The translations under genes and the position numbers were made by a program. Below are positions 10,820-45,675 of a DNA stretch of 64,000 bases, one piece after another. This stretch comes from an uncultured Paracoccaceae bacterium. Lineage in GTDB: Bacteria; Pseudomonadota; Alphaproteobacteria; Rhodobacterales; Rhodobacteraceae. Position 1 is the stretch's first letter. Each line of letters begins with the position of its first letter. The notes beneath the pieces were generated by a model, which saw only the letters and a list, made by a program, of their open reading frames with translations, ran no database searches and was not told where the DNA came from. The stretch is from contig CANNFA010000001.1 in the NCBI GenBank assembly GCA_947503765.1, forward strand, positions 248,001 to 312,000, given 5' to 3'.

Positions 10820-11332
10820 TCAGGGATTTTCCGCGGCCGCGCCGCACCATGCGGCCAGCGCATCCACGTCGGGCGGCAGATCCTCGGCCATGCCGCCCGC
10901 GAAATCGTCGAACGCGGCGCGGTTGCCGCGCCCCACCCCGACCAGAACCGGGATGCCGCGCTCCAGCGCGCTGCCGATCGCGGCGCAGAAGCCGCGGCCC
11001 GATGCTTCCTCGGGGCCGAACTTGTTGAGCAGGAACAGCTCGGCCCCGTCCAGCGATCCGCCCTCGACCGCGGCGACGGCGGCGGCGATGCCGGCCGGGT
11101 CCAGCCGGCAGGCGCCCGATCCCGCGCCCAGCGCCTGGGTGATGGCGATCACCGGGCCGCCGGGCAGCACCCGCACCTGCGCGTTGCAATGGTGGTCGTC
11201 CGGTGTCGCCGGCTCGGGTGCCTTGACGATCCCGGCAAGCCGCCGGCCCGCCTGTTCCAGCCGCTCGGCGGTCTCGGTGATCAGGCGATCGGTCTCTCCG
11301 GGGGCGGTTCCGGTGACGCAGGCGATCCGCAT
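10820..11332 (-). CDS. DUF2478 domain protein, ubiTUV-linked copy
   Basis: The 170-residue protein belongs to DUF2478, a family thought to derive from P-loop NTPases but without a canonical Walker lysine (here GTAPGETDRL, where GK would be expected). It shares with the second copy at 46980-47504 the patterns C-x-x-x-V-x-VLP-x-G, I-x-Q-x-LG, GCRLDP, NKFG, GRGF and FDDFAG/FHDFAG. The start at 11332 is preceded by GGGAAGGGAC. It follows ubiV by 21 bp and is the last gene of the FNR-linked ubiT-ubiU-ubiV operon. DUF2478 genes are often near molybdenum or nitrate genes. Function is unknown, and an anaerobic accessory role is inferred from the two contexts. Confidence 0.8.
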   Translation of the reverse strand: MRIACVTGTAPGETDRLITETAERLEQAGRRLAGIVKAPEPATPDDHHCNAQVRVLPGGPVIAITQALGAGSGACRLDPAGIAAAVAAVEGGSLDGAELFLLNKFGPEEASGRGFCAAIGSALERGIPVLVGVGRGNRAAFDDFAGGMAEDLPPDVDALAAWCGAAAENP

Positions 11333-11353: not shown

Positions 11354-12259
11354 CTAGGCGGCGGGCCGGCCGCCGGACCAGTCCACCCCGCGCGCGCCGG
11401 TCAGGAAGCCGTCCGACAACCGCACACCCGGTGCCTGTGCCTCCAGTTTCGCCGCCAGCCCCGCGCCGTCAAGCGCGCCGTCGATCCGTGCGCGCCAGGC
11501 CCGGCACAGGGCCGCGAAGTCGCCGGTCTGCGGCGACAGGCGCAAAGCCGTCACCCCCGCCTCGACCAGCGCGCCGTATTGATGCGCGGCGCTGGCATGG
11601 GTGTGCGACAGGGTCTGCACCCCGTTCATCGCCAGGAACGGCTGGTCGTCCATCGTGCGCACGTCCAGCCCGTCGGGATCGTCCTCGCAGGCGAACTGGC
11701 AATTGTCCTTGGTGCGGCCGTGCAGCCGCGCGTGATAGCAGCGCCCCGAGATCGCCAGCGGCACGCGGCCATGGCCCCAGACCTCGATGGCGACGCCCAG
11801 GTCGCGCGCGGCGGCGGTCAGCACGCGCACCGAGTCCAGCGTCAGCTCGGGCGGCAGGCAGACCCGGCGCGCGCCGCGCGCGGCCAGCCAGGCCAGCGTG
11901 CCCTCGTTGTAGACATTGACCAGCGGGCCGACCCAGAACGGCGCCCCCTCGGGCAGATGCGCCAGCGCGGTCAGGTCGTTCACCTCGACGGCGACGCCCA
12001 TCTCGGCCAGCTCGGCCGTCATCTTGCGCTCGCGCTTGAGCGTGACCAGCGCCAGCGAGGTCAGCGCCACCTCCTTGCCCGCCGCCAGCAGCGTTTCGAT
12101 CGCCTCGGGGATGCGCGCCTGGTAGAAGGGCGCCCGTTTCGAGCAGACCAGCTCGCCCAGCACGACGCGGTCCACGGGTTCGGCGGCCAGCGTTTCGTAA
12201 AGCTGCGCCCAGGCATCGGCCTTCCAGAAGAACTGGTTCGGGCCCACGGTCAGGTCCAT
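11354..12259 (-). CDS. ubiV: Anaerobic ubiquinone hydroxylation protein UbiV (U32 family)
   Basis: The 301-residue U32-peptidase-like protein forms with UbiU a heterodimer that hydroxylates ubiquinone precursors without O2, with prephenate as oxygen donor in E. coli. The four [4Fe-4S] ligands are visible: Cys39 (GELVCSKR), Cys174, Cys187 and Cys191 in the pattern C-x12-C-x3-C. This corresponds to the E. coli set at 39, 180, 193 and 197. The start at 12259 has GGAGGTGA five bases upstream; an ATG at 12274 would place that ribosome site inside the gene. Five bases separate the ubiU stop and this start. Confidence 0.95.
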   Translation of the reverse strand: MDLTVGPNQFFWKADAWAQLYETLAAEPVDRVVLGELVCSKRAPFYQARIPEAIETLLAAGKEVALTSLALVTLKRERKMTAELAEMGVAVEVNDLTALAHLPEGAPFWVGPLVNVYNEGTLAWLAARGARRVCLPPELTLDSVRVLTAAARDLGVAIEVWGHGRVPLAISGRCYHARLHGRTKDNCQFACEDDPDGLDVRTMDDQPFLAMNGVQTLSHTHASAAHQYGALVEAGVTALRLSPQTGDFAALCRAWRARIDGALDGAGLAAKLEAQAPGVRLSDGFLTGARGVDWSGGRPAA

Positions 12260-12264
12260 GCCGC

Positions 12265-13242
12265 TCACCTCCATGTCTTGCGATAGGCGCCGGTCGTGCC
12301 CGCCTGCCCCTCGGACAGCCGCGCCAGCATCCCCGCCGGCAGCGGCCGCCCGGCGGCGACGGCATCGACCGCGGCGCGGAAATTGCGCACCACCTGCGCC
12401 ACGTAGGACGAGGACCGCTGCCGCCCCTCGATCTTGAGCGCGGTGACGCCGGCCTTTTCCAGCTGCGGGATCAGTTGTTCGGCATTCAGGCTGACCGGAT
12501 CCTCGAACAGGTGGCCGGTCTTTTCGCCGGCGCCGAAGCACCCCTTGCACAGCGTCGGATAGGGCGCAGGTTCGCCCCGCGCGGCGCGGTGGATCGTGTA
12601 GCCGCCCAGCCGCGCATCCAGCGTGCCGTTCTCCTCGACATATTCGACATGGCTCGCGGGGGAACAGACGCCGTTCATGTTGGGCGACTTGCCCGTGGCA
12701 TAGGAGGACAGCGAACAGCGCCCCTCGGCCATGACGCACAGGCCGCCGAACACGAACACCTCGGTCTCGACCTGGGTCTCGGCGTTGATCGCGGCGATTT
12801 CCGGCACCGACAGCACGCGCGGCAGCACGACCCGCTTCACGCCGAACGTGTCGGCATAAAGGTTGATCATGTCGGCATTGGCGGCGGCGGCCTGGACCGA
12901 CAGGTGCCGGCGCAGGCCGGGATGGTGCCGCGCGGCGCGGTCCAGCAGGCCCAGATCGGCGAGGATCACCGCATCGGCGCCCGCCGCCTCGGCATCGGCG
13001 ATGGCGGCGTGCCAGGTGGCCTCGCCGCCGGCGCGCGGAAAGGTGTTGATCGCCACCAGCACCTTCGCGCCGCGCGCATGGGCAAAGGCGATGCCGTCGC
13101 GCATCTCGGCCCGGTCGAAGTTCAGGCCGGGAAAGTTGCGCGCGTTCGTCTCGTCGGCAAAGCCGCAATAGATGGTATGCGCGCCCGCCTTCACCGCGGC
13201 CCGGAGCGAGGCGGGCGTGCCCGCCGGGCAGACGATTTCCAT
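12265..13242 (-). CDS. ubiU: Anaerobic ubiquinone hydroxylation protein UbiU (U32 family)
   Basis: The 325-residue partner of UbiV has a U32 fold and a [4Fe-4S] cluster. Counting from the ATG at 13242, the cluster cysteines fall at 169, 176, 193 and 232, the same numbers as in E. coli UbiU, which supports this start over the alternative ATG two codons earlier (13248) and over the longer frame to 13311. MEIVCPAG at the N-terminus is family-typical. GGTGAG lies nine bases upstream. It sits between ubiT and ubiV, and the three products make up the oxygen-independent arm of ubiquinone synthesis, useful during nitrate respiration encoded further along. Confidence 0.95.
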   Translation of the reverse strand: MEIVCPAGTPASLRAAVKAGAHTIYCGFADETNARNFPGLNFDRAEMRDGIAFAHARGAKVLVAINTFPRAGGEATWHAAIADAEAAGADAVILADLGLLDRAARHHPGLRRHLSVQAAAANADMINLYADTFGVKRVVLPRVLSVPEIAAINAETQVETEVFVFGGLCVMAEGRCSLSSYATGKSPNMNGVCSPASHVEYVEENGTLDARLGGYTIHRAARGEPAPYPTLCKGCFGAGEKTGHLFEDPVSLNAEQLIPQLEKAGVTALKIEGRQRSSSYVAQVVRNFRAAVDAVAAGRPLPAGMLARLSEGQAGTTGAYRKTWR

Positions 13243-13252
13243 CACCATAAGC

Positions 13253-13837
13253 TCACCATTGCGGCATCTCCGTTCTTTGGGACATCTCGCCGGCGTCGTC
13301 GTAGAGGCCATTATCGGGCCGCGACAGGGGCGCGCCGGTGCGCCGTTCGGCCAGGTCGATCAGCCGGCGCAGCGGGCGGGCCAGCGGGCCGGACAGGGTT
13401 TCCACCTCGCGCGCGAGGTCCAGTTCGGCATCGTCCACCGCGTTGCGCAGCGCCAGCGCCGCCTCGGTATCGCCCTCGATCACCAGATCGCGCGAAAAGA
13501 ACAGCGCGTCGCCGTCATAGGCGCCGTGCACCAGCCCGATCAGCGCGGCCAGCGGCCCGGCGATGCGCGCATCCCCCTCGCCCCGCCCGCGCAGTACCGA
13601 CAGGCGCGGCGCGCCGGCCCGCGGCTCCAGCGCGATGACCACCGGCAGGTCGGTGGGATCGAGGATGAACCGGCGGTCCGCATAGGGCCCCAGCCGCCGG
13701 AACAGACCCGGATGGCGCCGCGCGATGCTGCGCGTCAGCGCCGTCATGGACAGCGACAGCGGCGCCAGCGGCAGCACCCGCAGCGGCAGCGTCAGCGGCG
13801 CGGGAAAGGTGGCGATGGTGGATGTCGGCGGCGTCAA
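13253..13837 (-). CDS. ubiT: SCP2-domain ubiquinone accessory factor UbiT
   Basis: The 194-residue protein starts from TTG 13837, preceded by AAAGGA at eight bases. The N-terminal segment PAPLTLPLRVLPLAPLSLSM followed by RRHPGLFRRLG and DPTDLP is typical of UbiT. The C-terminal SCP2 sterol-carrier domain contains FSRDLVIEGDTEAALALRNAVDDAELDL, a segment shared with UbiJ/UbiT lipid carriers. In E. coli UbiT is needed for anaerobic ubiquinone synthesis and binds isoprenoid intermediates. An internal ATG (MTALTRS) would drop the conserved N-terminal part. It is the first gene of the operon, with an FNR box 84-97 bp upstream. Confidence 0.88.
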   Translation of the reverse strand: MTPPTSTIATFPAPLTLPLRVLPLAPLSLSMTALTRSIARRHPGLFRRLGPYADRRFILDPTDLPVVIALEPRAGAPRLSVLRGRGEGDARIAGPLAALIGLVHGAYDGDALFFSRDLVIEGDTEAALALRNAVDDAELDLAREVETLSGPLARPLRRLIDLAERRTGAPLSRPDNGLYDDAGEMSQRTEMPQW

Positions 13838-13913
13838 GGCGGGATCCTTTCGCGGCCGGCACGGGAAGCAGTCCGCCGGCGCTTTCGCCACAGGCTTAGC
13901 AGCGGCGATGCGG

Positions 13914-13941
13914 CCGGAGTTTGACCTCGATCAAACTCCGG
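13914..13941. promoter_or_regulatory. FNR box within a 28-bp palindrome between ubiT and ubiD
   Basis: TTGAC-CTCG-ATCAA occupies 13921-13934 and matches the FNR/FnrL consensus. It is embedded in a longer perfect inverted repeat with 11-bp arms (13914-13924 and 13931-13941, spacer six). Placing the box at -41.5 would give start sites near 13886 (-) and 13969 (+), 49 and 23 nt before the ubiT and ubiD starts chosen here. One dimer site may therefore serve both directions. Confidence 0.75.
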
Positions 13942-13991
13942 GGCGGTCGCGGCTGTTAGACGCAGGATCAGGCCGGCGGCGGAGCAGTCCC

Positions 13992-15500
13992 ATTCGCGAT
14001 CTCAGACCCTTTCCCACCCTGCGCGATTTCCTGTCGTGGTGCGACGAAACCGGGCAGCTTGCGCGCATCGCCGATCCCGTGCCGCTGCGCCACCGGATGA
14101 CCGCCGTGCACCGTGCGGCGCTGGAACGCGGCGGGCCGGTGCTGCGATTCGACCGCGCCGAGGGCGATGGCGGGCGCGCGGCGATGCCGGTGATCGCCAA
14201 CCTGTTCGGCACCACCGCGCGGGTCGCGGCGGGGCTTGGCGTGACGCCGGAGCGTCTGGACGATCTGGGCACGTTCCTGGCCGCCCTGCGCGCGCCGACA
14301 CCGCCCGACGGGCTGCGCGACGCGCTGGCCCATTGGCCGATGCTGAAGGCGGCGCTGGCCACCCGGCCGAAGATCGGCGGGCGCGCCCCGGTGCAGGACG
14401 TCTGCCTTGAGGGCGCCGAGGTTGATCTTGGCGCGATCCCGGTACAGACCCACTGGCCCGGCGATGCCGGCCCGCTGATCACCTGGCCGCTGGTCCTGAC
14501 CCGGCCCGAGGGCAGCCGCGCCGAAGAGGCCGCGCGCTACAATGCCGGCATCTACCGCGCGCAGGTGCTGGGGCCGGACCGGCTGATCATGCGCTGGCTG
14601 CCGCATCGCGGCGGCGCGGCGCATCATCGCGGCTGGGCGGCGCGCGGGGAACGCACTCCTGTGGCGATCGTGCTGGGGGCCGATCCGGCCACGCTTCTGT
14701 CGGCCGCGCTGCCGCTGCCCGAAACCGTGTCCGAGCTGACCTTTGCCGGTGCGCTGAACGGGGCGCGGCCCCGGCTGGTTCTTGCGAAGACCGTGCCGAT
14801 GCTGGTGCCCGCCGAGGCGGAGATCGTGATCGAGGGCTGGGTGTCGCCCACCGAAACCGCGCCCGAGGGCCCGTTCGGCGATCACACCGGCTATTACAAC
14901 GCGGCCGAGCCGTTCCCGGTGGTCGAGGTCAGCGCGATCACCCACCGGCGCGATCCGCTGTACCTGTCCACCTATACCGGCCGCCCGCCCGATGAGCCGT
15001 CGGTCATCGGCGAGGTGTTCAACCGCCTCGCCCTGCCGACGATGCGCGCCCAGATCCCCGAGATCCGCGACGTCTGGCTGCCGCCCGCCGCCTGTTCCTA
15101 CCGGATCGCGGTGGTGTCGATCGACAAGCGCTATCCCGGCCAGGCGCGGCGTGTGATGATGGCGCTGTGGGGGATGCTGCCGCAGTTCAGCTATACCAAG
15201 ATGATCGTGGTCGTGGACGATGACATCGACGTGCGCGACTGGGACGACATCGCCTGGGCGCTGTCCACCCGGATGGACCCGGGCCGCGACACGGTGGTGA
15301 TGGACCGCACGCCGATGGATTACCTGGACTTCGCCTCGCCCGAGCCGGGGCTGGCCGGCAAGATCGGGCTGGACGCGACCACCAAGATCGGCAGCGAAAC
15401 CACCCGCGCCTGGGGCGAGGTGATGCACACCGACCCGGCCGACGCGTCCTTTGCCGCCGATCTGGTGGCGCGGGTGTTGCCGGGGCTGGAGGGCGGTTGA
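13992..15500 (+). CDS. ubiD: UbiD family decarboxylase (3-polyprenyl-4-hydroxybenzoate decarboxylase)
   Basis: About 502 residues of the prenyl-FMN-dependent UbiD family, which decarboxylates polyprenyl-4-hydroxybenzoate in ubiquinone synthesis. Motifs are NAGIYRAQVLGPDRLIMRW, HRGGAAHH and EGPFGDHTGYYN (with an active-site Glu). The conserved region begins at LRPFPTLRDFLSW. The only ATG in frame (13908) lies before the FNR box, so it is probably not transcribed. The best start is an ATT at 13992 with GGAG seven bases upstream, a rare initiation codon that needs proof; CTG 13953 is a weaker alternative. Its divergence from ubiTUV suggests co-regulation for anaerobic ubiquinone supply. The flavin prenyltransferase ubiX is not in this window. 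Confidence 0.88.
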   Translation: MRDLRPFPTLRDFLSWCDETGQLARIADPVPLRHRMTAVHRAALERGGPVLRFDRAEGDGGRAAMPVIANLFGTTARVAAGLGVTPERLDDLGTFLAALRAPTPPDGLRDALAHWPMLKAALATRPKIGGRAPVQDVCLEGAEVDLGAIPVQTHWPGDAGPLITWPLVLTRPEGSRAEEAARYNAGIYRAQVLGPDRLIMRWLPHRGGAAHHRGWAARGERTPVAIVLGADPATLLSAALPLPETVSELTFAGALNGARPRLVLAKTVPMLVPAEAEIVIEGWVSPTETAPEGPFGDHTGYYNAAEPFPVVEVSAITHRRDPLYLSTYTGRPPDEPSVIGEVFNRLALPTMRAQIPEIRDVWLPPAACSYRIAVVSIDKRYPGQARRVMMALWGMLPQFSYTKMIVVVDDDIDVRDWDDIAWALSTRMDPGRDTVVMDRTPMDYLDFASPEPGLAGKIGLDATTKIGSETTRAWGEVMHTDPADASFAADLVARVLPGLEGG

Positions 15501-31346: not shown

Positions 31347-31360
31347 TTGACCGCGATCAA
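31347..31360. promoter_or_regulatory. FNR box upstream of dppA
   Basis: TTGAC-CGCG-ATCAA is a perfect FNR/FnrL-type site. Its centre lies about 52 bp upstream of the start predicted from the -24/-12 promoter and 118 bp before dppA, suggesting that anaerobiosis also affects this operon. FNR family proteins normally act with sigma-70, so the mode of action here is unclear. Confidence 0.65.
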
Positions 31361-33734: not shown

Positions 33735-33748
33735 TTGACAAATGTCAA
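33735..33748. promoter_or_regulatory. FNR-type box near narR
   Basis: TTGAC-AAAT-GTCAA is a perfect palindromic FNR-family site. It lies only 38-51 bp upstream of the narR start, so it may mediate autoregulation by NarR or repression, or act on narK1 from a distance. Confidence 0.75.
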
Positions 33749-33848: not shown

Positions 33849-33862
33849 TTGACATGGATCAA
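33849..33862. promoter_or_regulatory. FNR-type box upstream of narK1
   Basis: TTGAC-ATGG-ATCAA. With the site centred at -41.5 the start would be near 33897, 46 nt before the narK1 ATG, the geometry of a class II FNR-activated promoter. It should drive narK1K2GHJI under low oxygen. Confidence 0.8.
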
Positions 33863-33942
33863 GATGGCGCGCCGCCCCGTCGGGCATGCCCGCTGGCGAC
33901 TTCGCCGGCCATGCGCCGGAACAAGCGAGCGGAGAGGGACAG

Positions 33943-35355
33943 ATGGAACTGCAAAACAAGGCCACCGCGCTGTGGTCAAACTTCTTTAACGTAAGAATGG
34001 TCCAGATCAGGACGTTCCACATGACGTGGTTCGCCTTTTTCGCGTGCTTTTTTGCGTGGTTCGGCATCGCGCCGCTGATGAGCGTGGTGCGCGACGAGCT
34101 GCAGCTGACCAAGGACCAGATCGGCTGGGCGATCATCGGCTCGGTATCGATGACCATCTTCGCGCGGCTGTTCATCGGCTGGCTGTGCGACCGGATCGGG
34201 CCGCGGAAGACCTATACCTGGCTGCTGATCCTGGGCTCGCTGCCGGTGATGGGCATCGGGTTGTCGTGGAACTTCGAAAGCTTCCTGCTGTTTCGCGTCC
34301 TGATCGGCTGCATCGGCGCGTCCTTCGTCATCACACAGTACCATACCAGCGTGATGTTTGCGCCGAACGTGGTCGGCCAGGCCAACGCCACCTCGGCGGG
34401 CTGGGGCAACCTGGGCGGGGGCGTGACGCAATTCGTCATGCCGCTGCTGTTCTCGGTCTTCGTGATCGGCTTCGGCTTTTCCGAGGCGGTCGGCTGGCGG
34501 CTGGCCATGGTCGTGGTCGGGATCATCATCTTCGTGATCGGCATCGCCTATTACTTCCTGACGCAGGACGCGCCGGACGGCAATTTCGACGACCTGCGCA
34601 CCCAGAACCGCATGGAGGAAAAGAAGAACGTCACCGGCAACTACATGCAGGCGCTGAAGGATCCGCGCGTGTGGGTGCTGTTCGTCATCTATGGGGCCTG
34701 CTTCGGCATCGAGCTGACGGTGAACAACGTCGCCGCGCTGTACTTCTTCGACTACTTCGAGCTCAGCCTCGTCGCCGCCGGGTTCGTCGCCGCCTCTTTC
34801 GGGCTAATGAACCTGTTCGCGCGGACGCTGGGCGGGCTGTTCGGCGACAATTTCGGCGCGCTGTGGGGCCTGAAGGGGCGCAGCTTCTGGCTGTTCATCT
34901 GCCTTTTCTTCGAAGGCTGCGCGCTGCTTGTCTTCAGCCAGATGCACGTCCTGTTCCTGGCCCTGCCGGCGCTGATCGTGTTCTCGCTGTTCACGCAGAT
35001 GGCCGAGGGCGCCACCTATTCGGTCGTGCCGTTCGTCAACAAGCGGGCGCTGGGCGCGGTGGCGGGCGTCGTCGGCGCGGGCGGCAATGCCGGCGCGGTG
35101 CTGGCCGGCTTCCTGTTCAAGAACATGATCGACTGGTCCGAAGCCTTCATGATCCTCGGCTTCGTGGTCGTGGCCGCGTCGTTCCTGGCCTTCTTCGTGC
35201 GCTTCTCGACGCGCCAGGAGGACGAGGAGCGCGCCAACTTCGCCGCCGCCAACATCGAGACGCTGCGCCGCCGCGCCGAGCGGGCCAACGCCGCGCTGGA
35301 AGAGGGGCTGACGGCGATCTCGCGCCGCGACGGCCGCCCTGCCCCGGCCGAATGA
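33943..35355 (+). CDS. narK1: Nitrate/nitrite transporter NarK1 type
   Basis: The 470-residue major facilitator protein has 12 predicted helices. The nitrate-porter segment GWGNLGGGVTQFVMPLL (about 146-162) and its second-half counterpart GAVAGVVGAGGNAGAVLAG (about 366-384) form the nitrate signature motifs. Position and N-terminus suggest the NarK1 (proton-coupled nitrate uptake) subtype; assignment to subtype is inferred. It starts at the ATG 33943 with GGAGAGG upstream. In Paracoccus denitrificans NarK1 and NarK2 are fused, while here they are separate genes 74 bp apart. Confidence 0.92.
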   Translation: MELQNKATALWSNFFNVRMVQIRTFHMTWFAFFACFFAWFGIAPLMSVVRDELQLTKDQIGWAIIGSVSMTIFARLFIGWLCDRIGPRKTYTWLLILGSLPVMGIGLSWNFESFLLFRVLIGCIGASFVITQYHTSVMFAPNVVGQANATSAGWGNLGGGVTQFVMPLLFSVFVIGFGFSEAVGWRLAMVVVGIIIFVIGIAYYFLTQDAPDGNFDDLRTQNRMEEKKNVTGNYMQALKDPRVWVLFVIYGACFGIELTVNNVAALYFFDYFELSLVAAGFVAASFGLMNLFARTLGGLFGDNFGALWGLKGRSFWLFICLFFEGCALLVFSQMHVLFLALPALIVFSLFTQMAEGATYSVVPFVNKRALGAVAGVVGAGGNAGAVLAGFLFKNMIDWSEAFMILGFVVVAASFLAFFVRFSTRQEDEERANFAAANIETLRRRAERANAALEEGLTAISRRDGRPAPAE

Positions 35356-36892: not shown

Positions 36893-39800
36893 ATGAGCCA
36901 CCTGCTCGACAGACTGAACTTCCTCCAGTCCAAGGAACTGGAACGCTTCTCGAACGGCCACGGGCAGGTGACCCGCGAGAGCCGCGACTGGGAAGAGACC
37001 TACCGCAACCGCTGGCGCCACGACAAGATCGTGCGCTCCACCCACGGGGTGAACTGCACCGGGTCGTGCAGCTGGAAGATCTACGTGAAATCCGGGATCG
37101 TCACCTGGGAGACGCAGCAGACCGATTACCCGCGCACCCGTGCCGGGCTGCCCAACCACGAGCCGCGCGGCTGTGCCCGCGGCGCGTCCTATTCATGGTA
37201 CCTCTATTCCGCCAACCGGGTGAAGAACCCGCTGGTGCGCGGCCGGCTGATGAAGGCCTGGCGCCGGATGCGCGAGACGATGGACCCGATCACCGCCTGG
37301 ACCAAGCTGCAATCGGACCCGGTGCTGCGCGCCAGCTATGTCGAGACCCGCGGCAAGGGCGGCTTCGTGCGCGCGTCCTGGGACGAGGCGACCGAGATCG
37401 TGGCCGCCGCCAACGCCTATACCGCCAAGACCTACGGGCCCGACCGGGTGTTCGGCTTCTCGCCGATCCCGGCGATGTCGATGGTCAGCTATGCCGCCGG
37501 CTCGCGCTACCTGTCGCTGCTGGGCGGCGTCTGCCTGAGCTTCTACGACTGGTATTGCGACCTGCCGCCGGCCTCGCCCATGACCTGGGGCGAGCAGACC
37601 GACGTGCCGGAATCGGCCGACTGGTACAATGCGGGCTACCTGCTGCTCTGGGGCTCGAACGTGCCGCAGACGCGCACGCCGGATGCGCATTTCTACACCG
37701 AGGCACGCTATCGCGGCGCCAAGTCCGCCGTGGTCAGCCCCGACTATTCCGAGGCCGCCAAGTTCGGCGACGTGTGGCTGAACGCCAAGCAGGGCACCGA
37801 TGCGGCGCTGTCGATGGCCTTCGGCCACGTCATCCTGCGCGAGTTCCACATCGACCGGCAGGCCGAGTATTTCCAGGAATACTGCCGCAAATACACCGAT
37901 TTCCCCATGCTGGTGAAGCTGGAGGAAAAGGACGGCCGCCATGTCGCCGGCCGGTTCCTGCGCGCCGCCGACCTGGACGGCACGCTGGGCGAGGACAACA
38001 ACCCCGAATGGAAGACCGTCGCGCTTGACGAGATCTCGGGCGGCATGGTCGCGCCCAACGGCTCTGTCGGCTATCGCTGGGGCGAGGCGGGCGAATGGAA
38101 CCTTGAAGAGCGCGCCAAGGACGCGGACACGCGGCTGAAGATGACGCTGGCGGACAAGGCCGACCATGACGAGATGGCGGCGGTCGATTTCCCCTATTTC
38201 GGCGGCGCGGCAACCGAAGCCTTCGCCACCGACGCCTCGCACCCCGATGTGTTGACCCGCACGATCCCGGTGCGCAAGGTGCAGACCGAAGACGGCGAGG
38301 TGCTGGTCGCCACCGTGTTCGACCTGTTCTGCGCCAATTACGGGCTGGATCGCGGCTTCGGCGGCGACTGGGTGGCCAGCGACTATGCCGACGACATGCC
38401 CGGCACCCCCGCCTGGGCCGAGAAGATCACCGGCGTTCCGGCCGACAAGATCATCCATGTCGCGCGCGAATTCGCGCAGAACGCCGAGAAGACCGACGGC
38501 AAGTCGATGGTGATCCTGGGGGCCGGTCTGAACCACTGGTACCACATGGACATGAACTATCGCGGCATCATCAACATGTTGGTGATGTGCGGCTGCGTCG
38601 GCCAGTCGGGCGGCGGCTGGGCCCACTATGTCGGGCAGGAAAAGCTGCGCCCGCAGACCGGCTGGCTGCCGCTGGCCTTCGCGCTGGACTGGAGCCGCCC
38701 GCCGCGGCACATGAACGGCACCTCGGCCTGGTACGCCCATTCCGACCAGTGGCGCTACGAGACGATGACGGCCAACGACATCCTCAGCCCCACCGCCCCC
38801 GAGGGCGACTGGGACGTGTCGATGATCGACTACAACATCCGCGCCGAGCGGATGGGCTGGCTGCCATCCGCGCCGCAGCTCAAGACCAACCCGCTGGAGG
38901 TGGCCAAGGCCGCCAAGGCGGCAGGCCAGGAGATCCCGGCCTATGTCACCGAAAAGCTGAAATCGGGCGAGCTGGAAATGTCCTGCGAAGACCCGGATGC
39001 GCCGGAAAACTGGCCGCGCAACCTGTTCGTGTGGCGGTCGAACCTGCTGGGATCGTCCGGCAAGGGGCATGAATACTTCCTCAAGCACCTTTTGGGCACC
39101 GATCACGGCGTCATGGGCAAGGATCTGGGCGAGGAAGGCCGGCAATTGCCGAAAGAGGCCAAGTGGCACGAGGACGGCCCGCGCGGCAAGCTGGACCTGC
39201 TGGTGACCATCGACTTCCGCATGTCCACCACCTGCGTCTATTCGGACATCGTGCTGCCGACCGCGTCCTGGTACGAGAAGAACGACCTGAACACATCCGA
39301 CATGCACCCGTTCATCCACCCGCTTCAGGCGGCCGTGGACCCGGCGTATGAATCGAAATCGGACTGGGAAATCTTCAAGGCCATCGCCGGCAAGCTGCAG
39401 GAAATCGCGCCGGGCTATCTGGGCCAGGAAACCGACATCGTCGCGCTTCCGATCCTGCACGACACCCCGGCGGAGATCGCCCAGGACCAGGTGAAGGACT
39501 GGAAGAAGGGCGAGTGCGAGCTGATCCCCGGCAAGACCGCGCCAAGCTATATCGCGGTCGAGCGGGATTATACCGCGATCCACGACCGCTATACCGCGCT
39601 TGGCCCGCTTCTGGACAAGCTGGGCAATGGCGGCAAGGGCATCTCGTGGAAGACCGAGACCGAGGTGCAGCACCTGCGCGACCTGAACGGCGTGCATCTT
39701 GAGGGATCGGCCACCGGCTGCGCCAAGATCGACACCGACATCGACGCGACCGAGGTGATCCTGATGCTCGCCCCCGAGACCAACGGCGAGGTCGCGGTCA

Positions 39801-40621
39801 AGGCCTGGGACGCGCTGGGCAAGTTCACGGGACGCGATCACACGCATCTCGCCCTGCCCAAGGAGGACGAGAAGATCCGGTTCCGCGACATCGCCGCGCA
39901 GCCGCGCAAGATCATCTCTTCGCCGACATGGTCGGGCCTGGAATCGGAGCATGTGTGCTACAACGCGGGCTATACCAACGTCCACGAGCTGATCCCGTGG
40001 CGCACCCTGACCGGACGCCAGCAGCTGTACCAGGATCACCTGTGGATGCGGGCCTTCGGCGAGGGCTTCATGTCCTACCGCCCGCCGGTCGACCTGCGCA
40101 CGATCACCAAGGACGTGAAGGACGACGGCGACAACCTGATCCTGAACTTCATCACGCCGCACCAGAAATGGGGGATCCACTCGACCTATACCGACAACCT
40201 GCTGATGCTTACGCTGAACCGCGGCGGGCCGGTCGTGTGGCTGTCCGAGAACGACGCGAAATCGGCCGGGATCGTCGATAACGACTGGATCGAGCTGTAC
40301 AACACCAACGGCGCGCTGACGGCGCGGGCGGTGGTGTCGCAGCGGATCAAGGACGGCACCACGTTCATGTATCACGCCCAGGAAAAGATCGTGAACACGC
40401 CCGGATCGGAAAAGACCGGCAATCGCGGCGGGATCCACAACTCCGTCACGCGCGCGGTGCTGAAACCGACCCACATGATCGGCGGCTACGCCCATCAATC
40501 CTACGGCTTCAACTACTACGGCACCGTGGGATCGAACCGCGACGAGTTCGTCGTTGTCAGAAAAATGAAAAAGGTCGACTGGCTCGACCGCGAAGCGAGC
40601 GCGAAGGAGACCGCGGAATGA
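36893..40621 (+). CDS. narG: Respiratory nitrate reductase alpha subunit (NarG)
   Basis: The 1242-residue catalytic subunit reduces nitrate to nitrite at a Mo-bis-MGD centre on the cytoplasmic face of the membrane. The N-terminal [4Fe-4S] (FS0) ligands are visible as His51, Cys55, Cys59 and Cys94, two residues beyond the E. coli numbers. The Mo-coordinating Asp lies in SFYDWYCD (216-223), followed by YNAGYLLLWGSNVPQTRTPDAH. Length matches the family. The stop overlaps the narH start as ATGA (40618-40621). There is no Tat leader, as expected for the cytoplasm-facing enzyme. Confidence 0.98.
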   Translation: MSHLLDRLNFLQSKELERFSNGHGQVTRESRDWEETYRNRWRHDKIVRSTHGVNCTGSCSWKIYVKSGIVTWETQQTDYPRTRAGLPNHEPRGCARGASYSWYLYSANRVKNPLVRGRLMKAWRRMRETMDPITAWTKLQSDPVLRASYVETRGKGGFVRASWDEATEIVAAANAYTAKTYGPDRVFGFSPIPAMSMVSYAAGSRYLSLLGGVCLSFYDWYCDLPPASPMTWGEQTDVPESADWYNAGYLLLWGSNVPQTRTPDAHFYTEARYRGAKSAVVSPDYSEAAKFGDVWLNAKQGTDAALSMAFGHVILREFHIDRQAEYFQEYCRKYTDFPMLVKLEEKDGRHVAGRFLRAADLDGTLGEDNNPEWKTVALDEISGGMVAPNGSVGYRWGEAGEWNLEERAKDADTRLKMTLADKADHDEMAAVDFPYFGGAATEAFATDASHPDVLTRTIPVRKVQTEDGEVLVATVFDLFCANYGLDRGFGGDWVASDYADDMPGTPAWAEKITGVPADKIIHVAREFAQNAEKTDGKSMVILGAGLNHWYHMDMNYRGIINMLVMCGCVGQSGGGWAHYVGQEKLRPQTGWLPLAFALDWSRPPRHMNGTSAWYAHSDQWRYETMTANDILSPTAPEGDWDVSMIDYNIRAERMGWLPSAPQLKTNPLEVAKAAKAAGQEIPAYVTEKLKSGELEMSCEDPDAPENWPRNLFVWRSNLLGSSGKGHEYFLKHLLGTDHGVMGKDLGEEGRQLPKEAKWHEDGPRGKLDLLVTIDFRMSTTCVYSDIVLPTASWYEKNDLNTSDMHPFIHPLQAAVDPAYESKSDWEIFKAIAGKLQEIAPGYLGQETDIVALPILHDTPAEIAQDQVKDWKKGECELIPGKTAPSYIAVERDYTAIHDRYTALGPLLDKLGNGGKGISWKTETEVQHLRDLNGVHLEGSATGCAKIDTDIDATEVILMLAPETNGEVAVKAWDALGKFTGRDHTHLALPKEDEKIRFRDIAAQPRKIISSPTWSGLESEHVCYNAGYTNVHELIPWRTLTGRQQLYQDHLWMRAFGEGFMSYRPPVDLRTITKDVKDDGDNLILNFITPHQKWGIHSTYTDNLLMLTLNRGGPVVWLSENDAKSAGIVDNDWIELYNTNGALTARAVVSQRIKDGTTFMYHAQEKIVNTPGSEKTGNRGGIHNSVTRAVLKPTHMIGGYAHQSYGFNYYGTVGSNRDEFVVVRKMKKVDWLDREASAKETAE

Positions 40622-42141
40622 GAGTTCGTGCGCAAATCGGCATGGTGCTGAACCTCGACAAATGCATCGGCTGTCACACCTGTTCCGTCACATGCAAGAA
40701 CGTGTGGACCAGCCGGGACGGCGTCGAATACGCCTGGTTCAACAACGTCGAGACGAAGCCGGGCACCGGCTATCCGACCGACTGGGAAAACCAGGCGCGC
40801 TGGAAGGGCGGCTGGACCCGGACCCGTTCGGGCAAGCTGCACCCGCGGCAGGGGTCGAAATGGCGGATCGCGGCAAACATCTTTGCCAACCCCGACCTGC
40901 CCGAGATCGACGATTACTACGAGCCGTTCGATTTCGACTACGACCACCTGAAATCGGCGCCGGAGATGGAGGCGTTCCCGACGGCACGTCCCCGCTCGAA
41001 GATCACCGGCGAGCGGATCGAGAAGATCGAGAAGGGCCCGAACTGGGAGGAAATCCTGGGCGGCGAATTCGAGAAACGCTCGAAGGACTACAACTTCGAG
41101 GGGGTGCAGAAGGAAATCTACGGCGAGTACGAAAATACCTTCATGATGTACCTGCCGCGCCTGTGCGAGCACTGCCTGAACCCGGCCTGTGCCGCGTCGT
41201 GCCCGTCGGGCGCGATCTACAAGCGCGAGGAGGACGGCATCGTCCTGATCGACCAGGAGAAATGCCGCGGCTGGCGGATGTGCGTGTCCGGCTGCCCCTA
41301 CAAGAAGGTGTACTACAACTGGTCGACCGGCAAATCCGAGAAATGCACCATGTGCTATCCGCGGATCGAAAGCGGCAATCCGACGGTCTGTTCGGAAACC
41401 TGCGTCGGGCGCATCCGGTATATCGGGGTCATCCTGTATGACGCCGACAAGATCGAGGCCGCGGCCAGCGCCCCGGACGAGAAGGATCTGTACGACGCGC
41501 AGCTCGACGTGTTCCTCGATCCGAACGATCCGGGCGTGATCGAGGCCGCGCGCGCAGACGGCATCCCCGAGGACTGGATCAAGGCCGCGCGGCAAAGCCC
41601 GATCTGGAAGATGGCGATGGAATGGAAGGTCGCCTTCCCGCTGCATCCCGAATACCGCACCCTGCCGATGGTGTGGTACATCCCGCCGCTGTCGCCGATC
41701 CAGAACGCGGCCGAGGCCGGCGCGATCGGCACCGACGGCACCATGCCCGACGTGCGCAGCCTGCGCATCCCGGTGCGGTACCTGGCCAACATGCTGACGG
41801 CGGGCGACGAGGCGCCGGTGGTCAGCGCGCTGGAGCGGATGCTGGCGATGCGCGCCTACATGCGGTCGAAAACCGTGGACGGCGTCATCGACGAGGCGAT
41901 CGCGGCCCGTGTCGGCCTGTCCGGCCGGGTGATCGAGGAGATGTACAAGATCATGGCGCTGGCCGATTACGAGGACCGGTTCGTGATCCCGACGACGCAC
42001 CGCGAACAGGTCGAGGAAGCATACGACCTGAAGGGTGGCTGCGGGTTCACCGACGGCAACGGCTGTTCCACCGGCATCTCCAAGGGGTCGCTGTTCGGCG
42101 GGTCCAAGAAACCGCTGAAAATGCCCGAGGAGGTACGCTGA
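40618..42141 (+). CDS. narH: Respiratory nitrate reductase beta subunit (NarH)
   Basis: The 507-residue electron-transfer subunit holds three [4Fe-4S] clusters and one [3Fe-4S] cluster. Four cysteine groups are visible: C16-x2-C19-x2-C22-x3-C26; CEHCLNPACAASCP; CRGWRMCVSGCP, where Trp replaces Cys and defines the [3Fe-4S] site; and CTMCYPR with CSETC. It passes electrons from NarI haems to NarG. The start overlaps narG and its stop overlaps narJ by one base (TGATG). Confidence 0.98.
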   Translation: MRVRAQIGMVLNLDKCIGCHTCSVTCKNVWTSRDGVEYAWFNNVETKPGTGYPTDWENQARWKGGWTRTRSGKLHPRQGSKWRIAANIFANPDLPEIDDYYEPFDFDYDHLKSAPEMEAFPTARPRSKITGERIEKIEKGPNWEEILGGEFEKRSKDYNFEGVQKEIYGEYENTFMMYLPRLCEHCLNPACAASCPSGAIYKREEDGIVLIDQEKCRGWRMCVSGCPYKKVYYNWSTGKSEKCTMCYPRIESGNPTVCSETCVGRIRYIGVILYDADKIEAAASAPDEKDLYDAQLDVFLDPNDPGVIEAARADGIPEDWIKAARQSPIWKMAMEWKVAFPLHPEYRTLPMVWYIPPLSPIQNAAEAGAIGTDGTMPDVRSLRIPVRYLANMLTAGDEAPVVSALERMLAMRAYMRSKTVDGVIDEAIAARVGLSGRVIEEMYKIMALADYEDRFVIPTTHREQVEEAYDLKGGCGFTDGNGCSTGISKGSLFGGSKKPLKMPEEVR

Positions 42142-42860
42142 TGGCCCTGCAACTCAATGACCGCACGCTCAAGGCGCTGTCGCTGGTCCTGAGCTATCCC
42201 ACGCGGGAGCTTCAGGCGGCGATGCCGGAAATCGGGGGCGTTCTCGCCTCCGACACAAGGCTGACCGCGGCGGCGCGGCGGGCGCTGCGCCCGTTGGCCG
42301 AAGAGCTGTCGGCGCGCGACATCTACGAGCTGGAAGCGCAGTTCGTGATGCTGTTCGACCGCTCGCGCACGCTGTCGCTCAACCTGTTCGAACATGTCCA
42401 CGGCGAAAGCCGGGATCGCGGCGGCGCGATGGTCTCGTTGATCGAGACCTACCGCGACGGCGGGTTCGAGCCGGCCACGAGCGAGCTGCCCGATCACCTG
42501 CCCGTGCTGCTGGAATACCTTTCCACCCGGCCCGCGGCCGAAGCGCAGGAAATCCTGGCCGATGCCGCGCATATCTTCGAGGCGCTGGCCGAGCGGCTGG
42601 GCCGCAGGGACAGCCCCTATGCGCCGGTCTTCGCGGCGCTGGTGCAGCTTTCGGGCGCCGAGGCGGACCGCGCGGCGGTGGCCGGGCTGCTGGACCAGCC
42701 CGAGACCGATCCGAACGACCTGGAGGCGCTGGACAAGGTCTGGGAGGAATCCGAGGTGACCTTCGGCCCCGATCCGAATGCCGGCTGCCCGCAGGTGCGC
42801 GACATGCTCGCCGAAATGGACACCCCCATCAATCCCGCGCCGCGACACGCCGCCGAATAG
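42141..42860 (+). CDS. narJ: Nitrate reductase chaperone NarJ
   Basis: The 239-residue TorD-family chaperone is needed for molybdenum cofactor and Fe-S insertion into NarG and for membrane docking, but it is not part of the final enzyme. Typical segments are LSLVLSYPTRELQ near the N-terminus, YELEAQFVMLFDRSRTLSLNLFEHVHGESRDRG (long helix bundle region) and PDHLPVLLEYLS. The ATG at 42141 shares one base with the narH stop; a much longer frame from 41622 is narH shadow. Confidence 0.96.
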   Translation: MALQLNDRTLKALSLVLSYPTRELQAAMPEIGGVLASDTRLTAAARRALRPLAEELSARDIYELEAQFVMLFDRSRTLSLNLFEHVHGESRDRGGAMVSLIETYRDGGFEPATSELPDHLPVLLEYLSTRPAAEAQEILADAAHIFEALAERLGRRDSPYAPVFAALVQLSGAEADRAAVAGLLDQPETDPNDLEALDKVWEESEVTFGPDPNAGCPQVRDMLAEMDTPINPAPRHAAE

Positions 42861-42872
42861 GAAGAGAAAGCC

Positions 42873-43667
42873 ATGTTTGCGAACTTCAGCATCGACTACT
42901 TCATCTTCGGGATCATGCCCTACATCGCGCTGACCGTGCTGCTTGTCGGCTCGATCGCGCGGTACGAGCGCGACCCCTTCACCTGGAAATCCTCGTCCAG
43001 CCAGCTCTTGCGCCGCAAGCAGTTGATCTGGGGGTCGATCCTGTTTCATGTCGGCATCATCACGGTGTTCTTCGGGCACCTGATCGGGCTGTTCACGCCG
43101 GTGTGGGTGCTTGATACGCTGGGCGTGCCCTACGCTCTCAAGCAATGGCTGGCGGTGGTGGTCGGCGGCGTGGCCGGCATCGCGGCGCTGATCGGCGCGT
43201 CGATGCTGCTGCACCGGCGGCTGACCGATGCGCGTATCCGGCAGACCTCCAGCTTCGCGGATATCGCGATCCTGGCGCTGATCTGGCTGCAACTCCTGAT
43301 CGGGCTGGTCACGATCACCCTGACGCTGCAGCACATGGACGGGGTCGAGATGGTCCGCTTCATGACCTGGTCGCAAAGCGTCGTGCTGCTCAAGCTCAAC
43401 GCCTGGACCGAGGTGATCAACGTGCACTGGCTGTACAAGACGCACATCTTCCTTGGCCTGCTGATCACGATCCTGTTCCCGTTCACGCGGCTGGTTCACA
43501 TGATCTCGGGCTTTGCGGCGCCGGTGCGGTTCCTGCTGCGGCCGGGCTACCAGATCGTGCGCTCGCGCCGGAAGACACCGCTCGCCAGCGCGGGCAAGAC
43601 GGGCGGGGCCGCCTCGGCGACGATGGGCCGGACGCGGGCATCCGCTGCCGCCAACCCCGCGGAGTGA
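42873..43667 (+). CDS. narI: Respiratory nitrate reductase gamma subunit (NarI)
   Basis: The 264-residue cytochrome b subunit has five membrane helices. Haem-ligand histidines are present in helix 2 (FHVGIITVFFGH) and helix 5 (VHWLYKTHIFLGL). It oxidises quinol at the periplasmic side and passes electrons to NarH. It starts 12 bp after narJ, with GGAAGAG upstream. The C-terminal tail (after RSRRKTP) is longer and more Ala/Gly/Ser-rich than in E. coli. Confidence 0.97.
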   Translation: MFANFSIDYFIFGIMPYIALTVLLVGSIARYERDPFTWKSSSSQLLRRKQLIWGSILFHVGIITVFFGHLIGLFTPVWVLDTLGVPYALKQWLAVVVGGVAGIAALIGASMLLHRRLTDARIRQTSSFADIAILALIWLQLLIGLVTITLTLQHMDGVEMVRFMTWSQSVVLLKLNAWTEVINVHWLYKTHIFLGLLITILFPFTRLVHMISGFAAPVRFLLRPGYQIVRSRRKTPLASAGKTGGAASATMGRTRASAAANPAE

Positions 43668-43672
43668 CCGGC

Positions 43673-44473
43673 ATGAACCCTGCGATGTTCCCCGATGTCG
43701 TCGTCAACGGCGAAACCGTGCCCCATGCGCTGATCGCCGCCGAGACGCAGAACCAGGCGGCGCCGGCGGGCAAGCCCGGCATCGCCTGGCGCAAGGCGGC
43801 CAACGCCGTCGCGGTCCGCACCCTGCTGCTTCAGGAGGCACGCCGGCGCGGGATGGAGCCTGACCCTGAAGAGGTCGGTCCCGGACGCTTTGAAACCGAG
43901 GAGGAGGCCCTGATCCGGGGCCTTCTCGACACGCTGCCCGGCCAGGGCGCACCGTCCGAGGACGCCGTGCGCGCCGAATGGAGCCGCGATCCGGCCCGGT
44001 TCCGCGCGCCGCCCCTGTGGGAGGTGTCGCATATCCTCGCCGCCTGCGATCCGCGCGACGAGGCCGCCCGCGACAAGGCCGGGATCCGCGCACGGGCGCT
44101 GACCGCCGACGCCTTGAAAAATCCCGCCGGTTTCGCCAGACTGGCCGCAAGTCAAAGCGATTGCGGCTCCAAGGGGAACGGCGGCGCGCTGGGCCAGCTC
44201 GGGCCGGGCGATACCGTGCCGGAATTCGAGGCCGCGCTGCGCCGCCTGTCCGAGGGCGAGATCACCGCCGAGCCGGTGCTGTCGCGCCATGGCTGGCACG
44301 TCATCCGGCTTGATGCGGCGGCCGAGGGTGCGGTGCTTCCGTTCGAGGCGGCGGCGCCCCGGATCCGCGACGCGATGGAAAAGGCCGCCTGGACCCGCAC
44401 GGTACGCGATTTCGTGGCCGAACTGGTGGCACAGGCCGACATCACCGGCGCCGATCCGGCCCGGCAAATCTAG
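43673..44473 (+). CDS. Parvulin-type peptidyl-prolyl isomerase (nar operon, NifM-like)
   Basis: The 266-residue protein has an N-terminal helical region and a C-terminal rotamase domain (about 120-225) containing VSHILAA, GGALGQLGPGDTVPEFE and SRHGWHVIRLD, the parvulin core. No signal peptide is visible, so it acts in the cytoplasm. Similar genes follow narI in many denitrifiers and are thought to help nitrate reductase folding or maturation, in the way NifM helps nitrogenase. The start at 43673 lies five bases after the narI stop. Function is inferred from context. Confidence 0.85.
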   Translation: MNPAMFPDVVVNGETVPHALIAAETQNQAAPAGKPGIAWRKAANAVAVRTLLLQEARRRGMEPDPEEVGPGRFETEEEALIRGLLDTLPGQGAPSEDAVRAEWSRDPARFRAPPLWEVSHILAACDPRDEAARDKAGIRARALTADALKNPAGFARLAASQSDCGSKGNGGALGQLGPGDTVPEFEAALRRLSEGEITAEPVLSRHGWHVIRLDAAAEGAVLPFEAAAPRIRDAMEKAAWTRTVRDFVAELVAQADITGADPARQI

Positions 44474-44486
44474 CGAGGCACGCGCG

Positions 44487-45050
44487 ATGGCCGTTCATCC
44501 CCAGACCTGCCGCGACGACGGCACGCTGCCGACATCGCCGCGCAGCCTGCACGACCCGCTCGACTTTCTGTCGCAGGATCACATGCGCGCGCGGCAGGTC
44601 TGCGCGATGATCGACCGGCTTGCCGCCGCACCCGACCCCGACAGCGGCGATGCCGAGGCGATCCTGACCTTCCTGGGCGAGGAATTCCGCGATCACGTCG
44701 CCGACGAGGAACAGGTGCTGTATCCGATGCTGCTGTCGCGCTGCCGCTCGGAAGACGAGATCTGGAAGGCGATCGAGCGGGTGAGCGAGGACCGGGGCGA
44801 CAGTGTCGCCGCGCTTGCCGATCTGCGCTTGCGGCTGCGCCCGCTGCTGGCCGGCGGCGCGCTGTCCGAGGACGACCGCGCGGCATTGCGCGCCTTCGCC
44901 GCACGGGCGCGGCGCTACATCATCGCGGAAAACGCCATCATCCTGCCGCTGGCCCGTGCCCGCCTGTCGCCGGGCGATCTGGCCGAGTTGCAGGAGGCGA
45001 TGCGCGCCCGCCGGTCCTGGCCGCTGCCGAAGGGGGCGCGCGATGCTTGA
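44487..45050 (+). CDS. Hemerythrin-domain protein
   Basis: The 187-residue protein contains a four-helix hemerythrin-like domain. HDPLDFLSQDHMRARQVC and FRDHVADEEQVLYPML supply the His/Glu/Asp pattern for a di-iron centre (H-x3-E spacing in the second motif), and a later RRYIIAENAIILPLAR helix completes the bundle. It may bind oxygen or nitric oxide, or protect or repair Fe-S proteins; its location after narGHJI favours a role against reactive nitrogen species. It overlaps the carbonic anhydrase gene by eight bases. Confidence 0.82.
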   Translation: MAVHPQTCRDDGTLPTSPRSLHDPLDFLSQDHMRARQVCAMIDRLAAAPDPDSGDAEAILTFLGEEFRDHVADEEQVLYPMLLSRCRSEDEIWKAIERVSEDRGDSVAALADLRLRLRPLLAGGALSEDDRAALRAFAARARRYIIAENAIILPLARARLSPGDLAELQEAMRARRSWPLPKGARDA

Positions 45051-45675
45051 GGAACTGCTCAGGCGCAACCGCCACTGGTCGGCCCGGCGCAACGCCGAAC
45101 AGCCCGGCTATTTCGAGGGGCTGGCCGCCTTGCAGGCGCCGGAATTCTTCTGGATCGGCTGTTCCGACAGCCGGGTGCCGGCCAACGTGGTGTCGGGTCT
45201 CGCCCCCGGCGAGGTGTTCGTGCATCGCAACGTGGCGAACGTGGTGCATTCGTCGGACATGAACCTGCTCAGCTCGCTGGAATTCGCGGTGGACACGCTG
45301 GGCGTCCGGCAGATCATCGTGTGCGGCCATTACGGCTGCGGCGGGGTGCGCGCGGCGACCGAGACGCTGCCGCAGGGGCAGGCCGATCACGGGCTGGCCG
45401 ATCACTGGCTTGAACCGATCCGCCGGATCGCCCGCGGCGCGGCCGAGGAATTGGGACGGATGAACGACCCCGAGACGCGGCGCGACCGGATTGCCGAGCT
45501 GAACGTCGTCGAAGGTGTCGGCCGAGTCGCCGAGACCCCGATCCTGCGCCGTGCCTGGGCGCGCGGGCAGGATGTGCGGATCCACGGGCTGATCTACGGG
45601 CTGAAGGACGGGCTGCTGCGCAATCTCGACTGCACGGTCGAAGGGCCGGCCGGAACCGGCGAGGTGCAAGCATGA
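45043..45675 (+). CDS. can: Beta-class carbonic anhydrase
   Basis: The 210-residue cytoplasmic zinc enzyme interconverts CO2 and bicarbonate. The zinc ligands Cys40, His96 and Cys99 and the catalytic pair Asp42-Arg44 (CSDSR, HYGCGG) are all present, two residues short of E. coli Can numbering. Length is typical of the Can subgroup. The ATG at 45043 lies eight bases inside the hemerythrin gene, and its stop overlaps moeA as ATGA. Placement inside a nitrate-reductase operon is unusual; supply of bicarbonate or pH buffering during nitrate respiration is possible. Confidence 0.95.
   Translation: MLEELLRRNRHWSARRNAEQPGYFEGLAALQAPEFFWIGCSDSRVPANVVSGLAPGEVFVHRNVANVVHSSDMNLLSSLEFAVDTLGVRQIIVCGHYGCGGVRAATETLPQGQADHGLADHWLEPIRRIARGAAEELGRMNDPETRRDRIAELNVVEGVGRVAETPILRRAWARGQDVRIHGLIYGLKDGLLRNLDCTVEGPAGTGEVQA

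Follow-up and report, generated by a model that had tools for sequence, protein, structure and literature searches.

DUF2478 proteins as probable helpers in molybdenum and tungsten cofactor making

DUF2478 genes often adjoin genes for making the molybdenum/tungsten (Mo/W) cofactor and are sometimes fused to them, which makes their products probable helpers in the making of that cofactor. The link to the Mo/W cofactor is well supported: of 28 DUF2478 places in other genomes, 15 have a Mo/W-specific gene no more than 5 kb away, whereas none of 20 control regions has one, a linkage above background. What the contexts share across genomes is the supply of Mo/W (sensing, uptake, MoeA, MobA, and a bis-MGD enzyme) more than anaerobiosis. 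Our best reading is that DUF2478, a family previously without an assigned function, assists cofactor assembly as an accessory factor built on a scaffold other than that of MobB.

The analysis started from two DUF2478 genes in a stretch of 64,000 nucleotides (the window), for which the original prediction proposed a role in anaerobic respiration, perhaps in molybdenum cofactor or electron-carrier maintenance. The molybdenum cofactor part is backed by the neighbouring genes, by fusions to MobA and MobB and by the control regions. Anaerobic respiration or electron-carrier maintenance as the common factor does not hold, since arsenite oxidase, xanthine-dehydrogenase-type, moa/moe/mob and ModE contexts are also found. 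That the family has no assigned function agrees with the open-access literature, in which we found none, nor any published mutant, biochemistry or genetics of DUF2478/PF10649. The only mention of DUF2478 found there is a table entry for a plasmid protein in the accessible part of one paper (PMC9674854), and PF10649 goes unmentioned.

The window genes and their paralogues

The features of the window are collected in Table 1. Both DUF2478 proteins belong to PF10649 by score, and they are 43% identical to each other. VLP-x-G, NKFG, and GRGF are common to the two, as had been predicted, but GCRLDP is exact in the nar copy only; the ubi copy reads ACRLDP, so that the common part is CRLDP. The Walker lysine (GK[ST]) is indeed absent from both sequences.

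Table 1. Features of the window (nucleotide positions) and sites of the nar-copy protein (residues)
Feature	Position	Strand	Basis or remark
DUF2478 copy 1 (ubi copy; P0001, 170 aa)	10820..11332	minus	21 bp past ubiV; PF10649 151.2 bits, E 2.4e-44, gathering cut-off 22.3
ubiV	11354..12274	minus	NCBIfam UbiV 349.8 bits, cut-off 275
ubiU	12265..13248	minus	NCBIfam UbiU 500.4 bits, cut-off 440
ubiT ORF, start uncertain	13253..13891	minus	NCBIfam UbiT 76.5 bits, cut-off 46.9
FNR-like box TTGACCTCGATCAA	13921..13934	no strand	pattern scan; between ubiT and ubiD
ubiD-like ORF; true start probably downstream of the called one	13725..15500	plus	blastp label ubiD
FNR-like box ahead of narK-nar genes	33849..33862	no strand	pattern scan; second box at 33735
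narK-like transporter, first gene past box	33886..35355	plus	NCBIfam NarK subfamily 302.4 bits, slightly under cut-off 311.7
narG, Mo-bis-MGD nitrate reductase	36893..40621	plus	TIGR01580 2091.8 bits, cut-off 1084; PF01568
narH, narJ, narI	40642..43667	plus	blastp labels
PpiC-type isomerase, hemerythrin-domain protein, carbonic-anhydrase-like protein	43664..45675	plus	blastp to annotated L005 operon; PpiC-type isomerase and carbonic anhydrase models under cut-off
moeA-type molybdotransferase	45672..46967	plus	PF03453 above cut-off (C1:293756); best NCBIfam match MoeA, 294.7 bits, under equivalog cut-off 440
DUF2478 copy 2 (nar copy; P0002, 174 aa)	46980..47504	plus	12 bp past moeA; PF10649 177.5 bits, E 1.9e-52, gathering cut-off 22.3
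nar-copy sites: pseudo-P-loop, C48, C74, N102-K103-F104-G105, E108, G111, G113	residues 10-17, 48, 74, 102-105, 108, 111, 113		conservation

UbiT, UbiU, UbiV, and NarG all exceed the NCBI curated equivalog cut-offs, and besides the moeA-type gene the genome has two more MoeA_N genes. The nar copy had been placed after narGHJI-moeA; it does directly follow moeA, but the PpiC, hemerythrin, and carbonic anhydrase genes also stand between narI and moeA. Each DUF2478 gene had further been taken as the last of its operon. This is plausible for the nar copy, where the next gene begins 395 bp downstream, but unproven for the ubi copy, which is followed on the same strand, after a gap of about 110-170 bp, by an inositol-catabolism kinase/aldolase gene; a terminator-like site sought after the ubi copy was not found. 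The near-invariant residues of the family are present in the ubi copy, but no Mo gene is found within 5 kb of it. Exact FNR-like boxes (TTGAYNNNNRTCAA) lie at 13921, 31347, 33735, and 33849. With up to one mismatch, six boxes are seen where 2.05 are expected (2 of 100 shuffles reach six), but as pattern matches they say nothing directly on regulation. The exact box at 31347-31360 lies upstream of a minus-strand gene (29697-31235), whose product we take to resemble a transporter binding protein.

The window pair were described as two paralogues; the genome (3.98 Mb, 30 contigs) in fact carries four DUF2478 copies, with pairwise identities of 27-46%. Copy 3 (locus L009) is flanked on one side by formate dehydrogenase genes and on the other by a transporter of the tupBCA-like (tungstate/molybdate) type. 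The beta and gamma subunits of the dehydrogenase pass their NCBIfam cut-offs (344.1 bits against 240 and 134.9 against 115.85), and the best NCBIfam match of the alpha subunit is formate dehydrogenase, under cut-off. The binding protein of the transporter matches TupA and the permease TupB, both under the equivalog cut-offs, and uptake is therefore called tungstate/molybdate-type; 'tup' labels at other loci likewise rest on TupA/TupB-like proteins under these cut-offs. Copy 4 (L010) stands alone, with no molybdenum gene nearby and a neighbour that is presumably rhodanese-like; the evidence for this copy is its family membership. Thus, two of the four copies have a Mo/W gene nearby, and copies 1 and 4 do not.

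A tree was made of 95 domains, with about three quarters of the close relatives left out; its bootstrap values are rough, according to a warning of the tool, and L073 is mislabelled in it (as FecCD uptake). The four copies fall into four separate sets, indicating that the paralogues are old. The set of the nar copy (96/95) has 32 rows: 24 nar, two aio, one fdh, one moco, and four without label. The ubi copy joins ubi-linked L056 and unlabelled L071 (100/99), and copy 3 joins a copy from Alloyangia whose neighbours are fdhD-mobA-mobB-glp and genes for formate dehydrogenase (99/93). The five-row set of copy 4 (100/98) includes two xdh-linked copies, one near moeA and modAB, and L066 (none). Over the whole tree the neighbour labels cluster (44 changes, against a shuffled mean of 58.7), and the ubi, aio, fdh, and xdh labels, taken singly, show no clustering on these 95 domains. 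A small set (100/95) unites nar- (L007), aio- (L006), bisC- (L011), and mog/ubi-linked (L014) copies, suggesting that one DUF2478 subfamily moves between molybdenum enzymes.

Neighbours and fusions across genomes

DUF2478 is present in 25 of 299 genomes sampled from the phylum (Pseudomonadota). All 29 regions around the matches in the 24 genomes other than our own were surveyed, and 28 places were counted. The one left out (G200:C123) has no domain of 100 or more positions; at 43691-44160 its DUF2478 gene is broken into overlapping pieces, of which one contains an in-frame TAG. The 20 control regions came from 19 of these 24 genomes, with positions picked blind. A single pooled codon model served for gene calling, and labels were taken from blastp matches (E up to 1e-8) to 85 reference proteins; these came from E. 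coli K-12, annotated plasmid neighbours, the window, and L009, and some of them are themselves encoded next to DUF2478. Labels for ABC ATPases and permeases did not score as Mo genes, a rule that in the controls set aside tupC, carbonic anhydrase, cydB, and torC labels. The TupA label at L065 proved to be merely a generic binding protein, and this locus was therefore not counted.

The difference between the surveyed places and the controls gives a one-sided Fisher value of about 3e-5 (computed by hand), in genomes that include related ones, so that the counts are not independent. Within 1.5 kb, 12 of the 28 places have a Mo/W-specific gene, and no control region has a Mo/W label even across its full 19 kb. 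No confirmed label was found within 5 kb at 13 places. The original prediction looked to other genomes for a consistent association of the family; one exists, but with Mo/W genes and not in the form expected. Three further sets are selected and biased, and all three carry uncorrected labels. A Mo/W neighbour is found at 13 of 16 loci on plasmids, picked out of 46 records, and at 16 of 20 loci of the family of genome G163, picked for variety (three of the positives, L200-L202, rest on a sub-cut-off regulator match, tested for L200). Among close relatives of the nar copy, a set biased towards that copy, the count is 63 of 81; moeA is the immediate upstream gene in 43 of them, and eight of the 18 lacking Mo neighbours are from Ruegeria.

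The partner genes vary depending upon the locus. In annotated plasmid records the order is narGHJI, PpiC, hemerythrin (missing from one record), in some carbonic anhydrase, MoeA/Glp, and DUF2478. Other plasmid orders are aioBA (arsenite oxidase)-DUF2478, torA (TMAO reductase)-DUF2478, and a run of molybdopterin oxidoreductase-moeA-moaA-moaD-moeB-moaC-DUF2478-mog; in one plasmid, fdhD-mobA-mobB-glp is divergent from DUF2478. Xanthine-dehydrogenase-type genes are near DUF2478 at L076 and L077. DUF2478 stands between mobA, confirmed by profile, and mobB at L053 and is followed by mobB at L214; mog is also among the survey partners. Among sensing and uptake genes, ModE is a neighbour at L062, L064, and L199 (confirmed by profile at L062 and L199), with a TOBE-domain small protein and ModA also present at L199. 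A TupA-like binding protein is found beside DUF2478 at L206, L207, and L213, the order at the first two being tupBCA-like-DUF2478-moeA. FecCD-type uptake operons (PF01032) are found at L058, L062, L065, L216, and L217, ModE adjoining at L062 only.

Some loci call for separate mention. At L200, L201, and L202, DUF2478 adjoins an HTH protein whose second domain resembles the C-terminal part of a molybdopterin-biosynthesis model, and a similar HTH protein is encoded downstream of the tupA-like gene of our genome (L009, 12990-13853); these proteins are perhaps tungstate/molybdate sensors. At L073 (4607-9524), DUF2478 lies a few genes past fdhE, selA, and selB, and the locus was left out of the Mo/W count. 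The selenocysteine genes selA and selB are needed by some formate dehydrogenases, and the locus may point to a link with a selenium-containing formate dehydrogenase. On a Paracoccus marcusii plasmid (L015, 1-7534), nar-like pieces annotated as many short ORFs precede DUF2478, the region being either decayed or poorly sequenced. Paracoccus denitrificans also has a DUF2478 homologue, in record NZ_CP141053.1.

DUF2478 is also found in one chain with other domains. A MobA-DUF2478 chain is encoded in three genomes, G163, G303, and G312; the MobA halves score 168.5, 172.8, and 176.1 bits, respectively, against TIGR02665 (cut-off 151.85), and the fusion gene follows moeA and moaE at L051, L204, and L205. 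A DUF2478-MobB chain is encoded in G306 (L213, 9512-10612; MobB 168.3 bits, cut-off 26.6), flanked by genes for a tupBCA-like transporter and formate dehydrogenase. At L017, L049, L211, L216, and L217, DUF2478 is fused to DUF4213-DUF364, of which the DUF364 part is missing from both window proteins. In the G163 family, L169 (273-1472) encodes a diverged DUF2478-DUF364-like protein without the CRLD segment, and partial matches in several other genomes, covering the C-terminal half of DUF2478, may be of the same kind. The fusions show a functional link, not which step it concerns.

Enzymes with the bis-MGD domain PF01568 are present in 25 of 25 genomes with DUF2478 and 233 of 274 others (cross-read by eye), a co-occurrence that by itself is weak evidence for a cofactor role. 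Conversely, 233 of 258 genomes with bis-MGD enzymes do without DUF2478, which therefore cannot be a general requirement. Like the maturation factors NarJ, TorD, and FdhD, DUF2478 is encoded in Mo-enzyme operons and seems dedicated to particular enzymes; unlike them, it has no match to their profiles, and it is no substitute for them, as one or another is found beside it.

Predicted fold and conserved site

An AlphaFold2 model of the nar copy, made from 51 sequences, has a pLDDT of 88.7 and a pTM of 0.86. Its closest structural matches are two THEP1/NTPCR NTPases, 1ye8 (Z 13.5, 154 residues aligned, 3.2 A) and 2i3b (Z 12.9, 160 aligned, 3.3 A), the next match having a Z of 8.1; the predicted likeness extends over nearly the whole chain. 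In sequence, P0002 scores 21.2 bits against NTPase_1 (PF03266; cut-off 23.9) and P0001 has no match, while two of ten relatives scanned pass (L211, 28.1; L213, 26.3); a sequence search of solved structures gave nothing credible. Matches in the archaeal controls (M. jannaschii, M. acetivorans) may be THEP1-like.

DUF2478 differs from THEP1 in its Mo/W gene context, in a near-invariant C74, in the N-[KR]-F-G that follows the putative Walker B strand and in lacking GK[ST]. The last is missing from the first 30 residues in 148 of 149 DUF2478 domains, a count in which at least the L201 and L210 domains are trimmed N-terminally. The sole exception, at L055 (9334-9807, genome G235), has GKT in the P-loop, PGRGKTN, as a relic or a reversal; aligned with PGRGDTD of the nar copy, it places the lost lysine at D14, and it would be useful as an NTPase control. 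Over the 149 domains G35 is conserved in 100%, C74, F104, E108, and G113 in 99%, and K/R103 in about 99%, [KR]-F-x-x-x-E being near-invariant; N102 is conserved in 93%, and in 84% of 68 more diverse domains. In the model, N102-E108 would follow the strand that takes the place of Walker B in P-loop proteins, and the near-invariant residues may cluster into one site. A two-cysteine metal site of C48 and C74 was also considered, and is weakened by the occurrence of C48 in 74% of the 149 domains and 44% of the diverse 68.

DUF2478 resembles MobB (PF03205) in size and in company, the MobB-type linkage to MobA, MoeA, and tup-like genes being found for it as well, but the resemblance is in the way of working only: DUF2478 has neither a PF03205 match (E up to 1) nor a P-loop GKT. 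Homology to MobB was rejected, the hhalign probability being 1-2.4% against four MobB sequences; in Foldseek MobB 1xjc matched at E 0.1, and it is absent among the 50 best structure matches listed. DUF2478 as a replacement of MobB was also rejected as a rule, since the two coexist, once in one protein. MobB is held by 17 of 25 DUF2478 genomes, against 137 of 274 others (counted by eye); G163, one of the genomes with a MobA-DUF2478 fusion, has no MobB match.

Proposed role and alternatives

We hold with moderate confidence that DUF2478 assists in late steps of Mo/W-bis-MGD cofactor assembly, working alongside MoeA, MobA, and MobB as an operon-dedicated accessory factor. A THEP1-type fold that has lost the Walker lysine would most likely be a pseudo-NTPase adaptor and not an NTP-hydrolysing enzyme. 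The adaptor would dock on the MoeA/MobA(/MobB) machinery, between metal insertion and the step of guanylylation and hand-over, through a former phosphate site remade around C74, N102, K/R103, and E108. Separate copies would serve separate operons, such as those of nar, formate dehydrogenase, arsenite oxidase, and TMAO reductase. Family membership, the predicted fold, the missing GK[ST], the Mo/W surroundings, the fusions, and the clade-specific copies are what the analysis shows; we infer at which step DUF2478 acts, which partner and ligand it binds, and what C74 does. Most weight is given to action at the MoeA-to-MobA step, which is modelled on MobB of M. extorquens and would hold by analogy. 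There, according to the accessible text of a 2026 paper, the genes moeA1, mobB, and tupBCA form a cluster that serves a tungsten formate dehydrogenase; MobB is needed, and its role is still treated as uncertain (PMC13197769); that text has no mention of 'DUF'. Copy 3 beside its tupBCA-like genes, and the tupBCA-like-DUF2478-moeA order, parallel this cluster. The ubiTUV copy falls outside the cofactor-assembly model, and contexts with uptake genes only fit metal handling at least as well as a role at the MobA step.

These uptake contexts are better explained by the alternative ranked second, a tentative one, namely, that DUF2478 is a cytosolic carrier whose dead phosphate pocket holds molybdate or tungstate and passes it from uptake to MoeA. 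It is favoured by the ModE, ModA, TOBE, and TupA-like neighbours and FecCD-type operons described above, by the near-invariance of K/R103 and C74, and by the fusions to the DUF4213-DUF364 'heavy-metal chelation' domains. In the accessible part of the DUF364 structure paper, the genomic context includes tungstate, molybdate, and vanadium proteins, and flavin- or pterin-like chelators are proposed (PMC2954201). However, the fusions with MobA and MobB indicate a later step, and the Tup-like proteins are under the TupA equivalog cut-off. FecCD transporters, moreover, carry many substrates. A related and doubtful variant has DUF2478 as a dead-NTPase chaperone for molybdate/tungstate or a metal-pterin, feeding a dedicated MoeA/MobA in each operon. 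In effect, the Walker A lysine would have moved to where the Walker B strand ends (K/R103), joined by C74; the reshaped phosphate pocket would grip the oxyanion or metal-pterin, and the copy of each operon would steer metal to its own enzyme.

A general factor of anaerobic respiration or quinone metabolism, with the Mo link a by-product of denitrification islands, is improbable. DUF2478 does lie near ubi genes at L007, L014, L056, L098, and in the window, so that the predicted association with ubiTUV is real, but it is small. Moreover, at L007 and L014 nar or mog likewise adjoins DUF2478, and the ubi link may thus itself reflect denitrification islands and not quinone synthesis. NnrS/NnrU and Ric neighbours and the FNR-like boxes of the window are in keeping with such a factor, but it leaves the MobA/MobB fusions and the ModE, xdh, arsenite oxidase, and moa links without a reason. 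Least probable is a carrier of persulfide sulfur on C74 for cofactor sulfuration, in spite of the conservation of that residue, the TusA-like sulfur carrier genes near DUF2478 (L012, L017, L068) and the neighbour of copy 4 that we take to be rhodanese-like: cofactor sulfuration is a matter of formate dehydrogenase, whereas many DUF2478 copies accompany nar or aio, and tusA is found at these three loci only.

The preferred reading, an accessory factor in late cofactor assembly, bears on how molybdate and tungstate are routed to the right enzyme and how MobB-type adaptors function, a question that DUF2478 could address. Being fused to MobA or MobB and often placed behind moeA, it offers a direct, testable handle on that step. 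A working annotation would follow for genes now listed merely as DUF2478.
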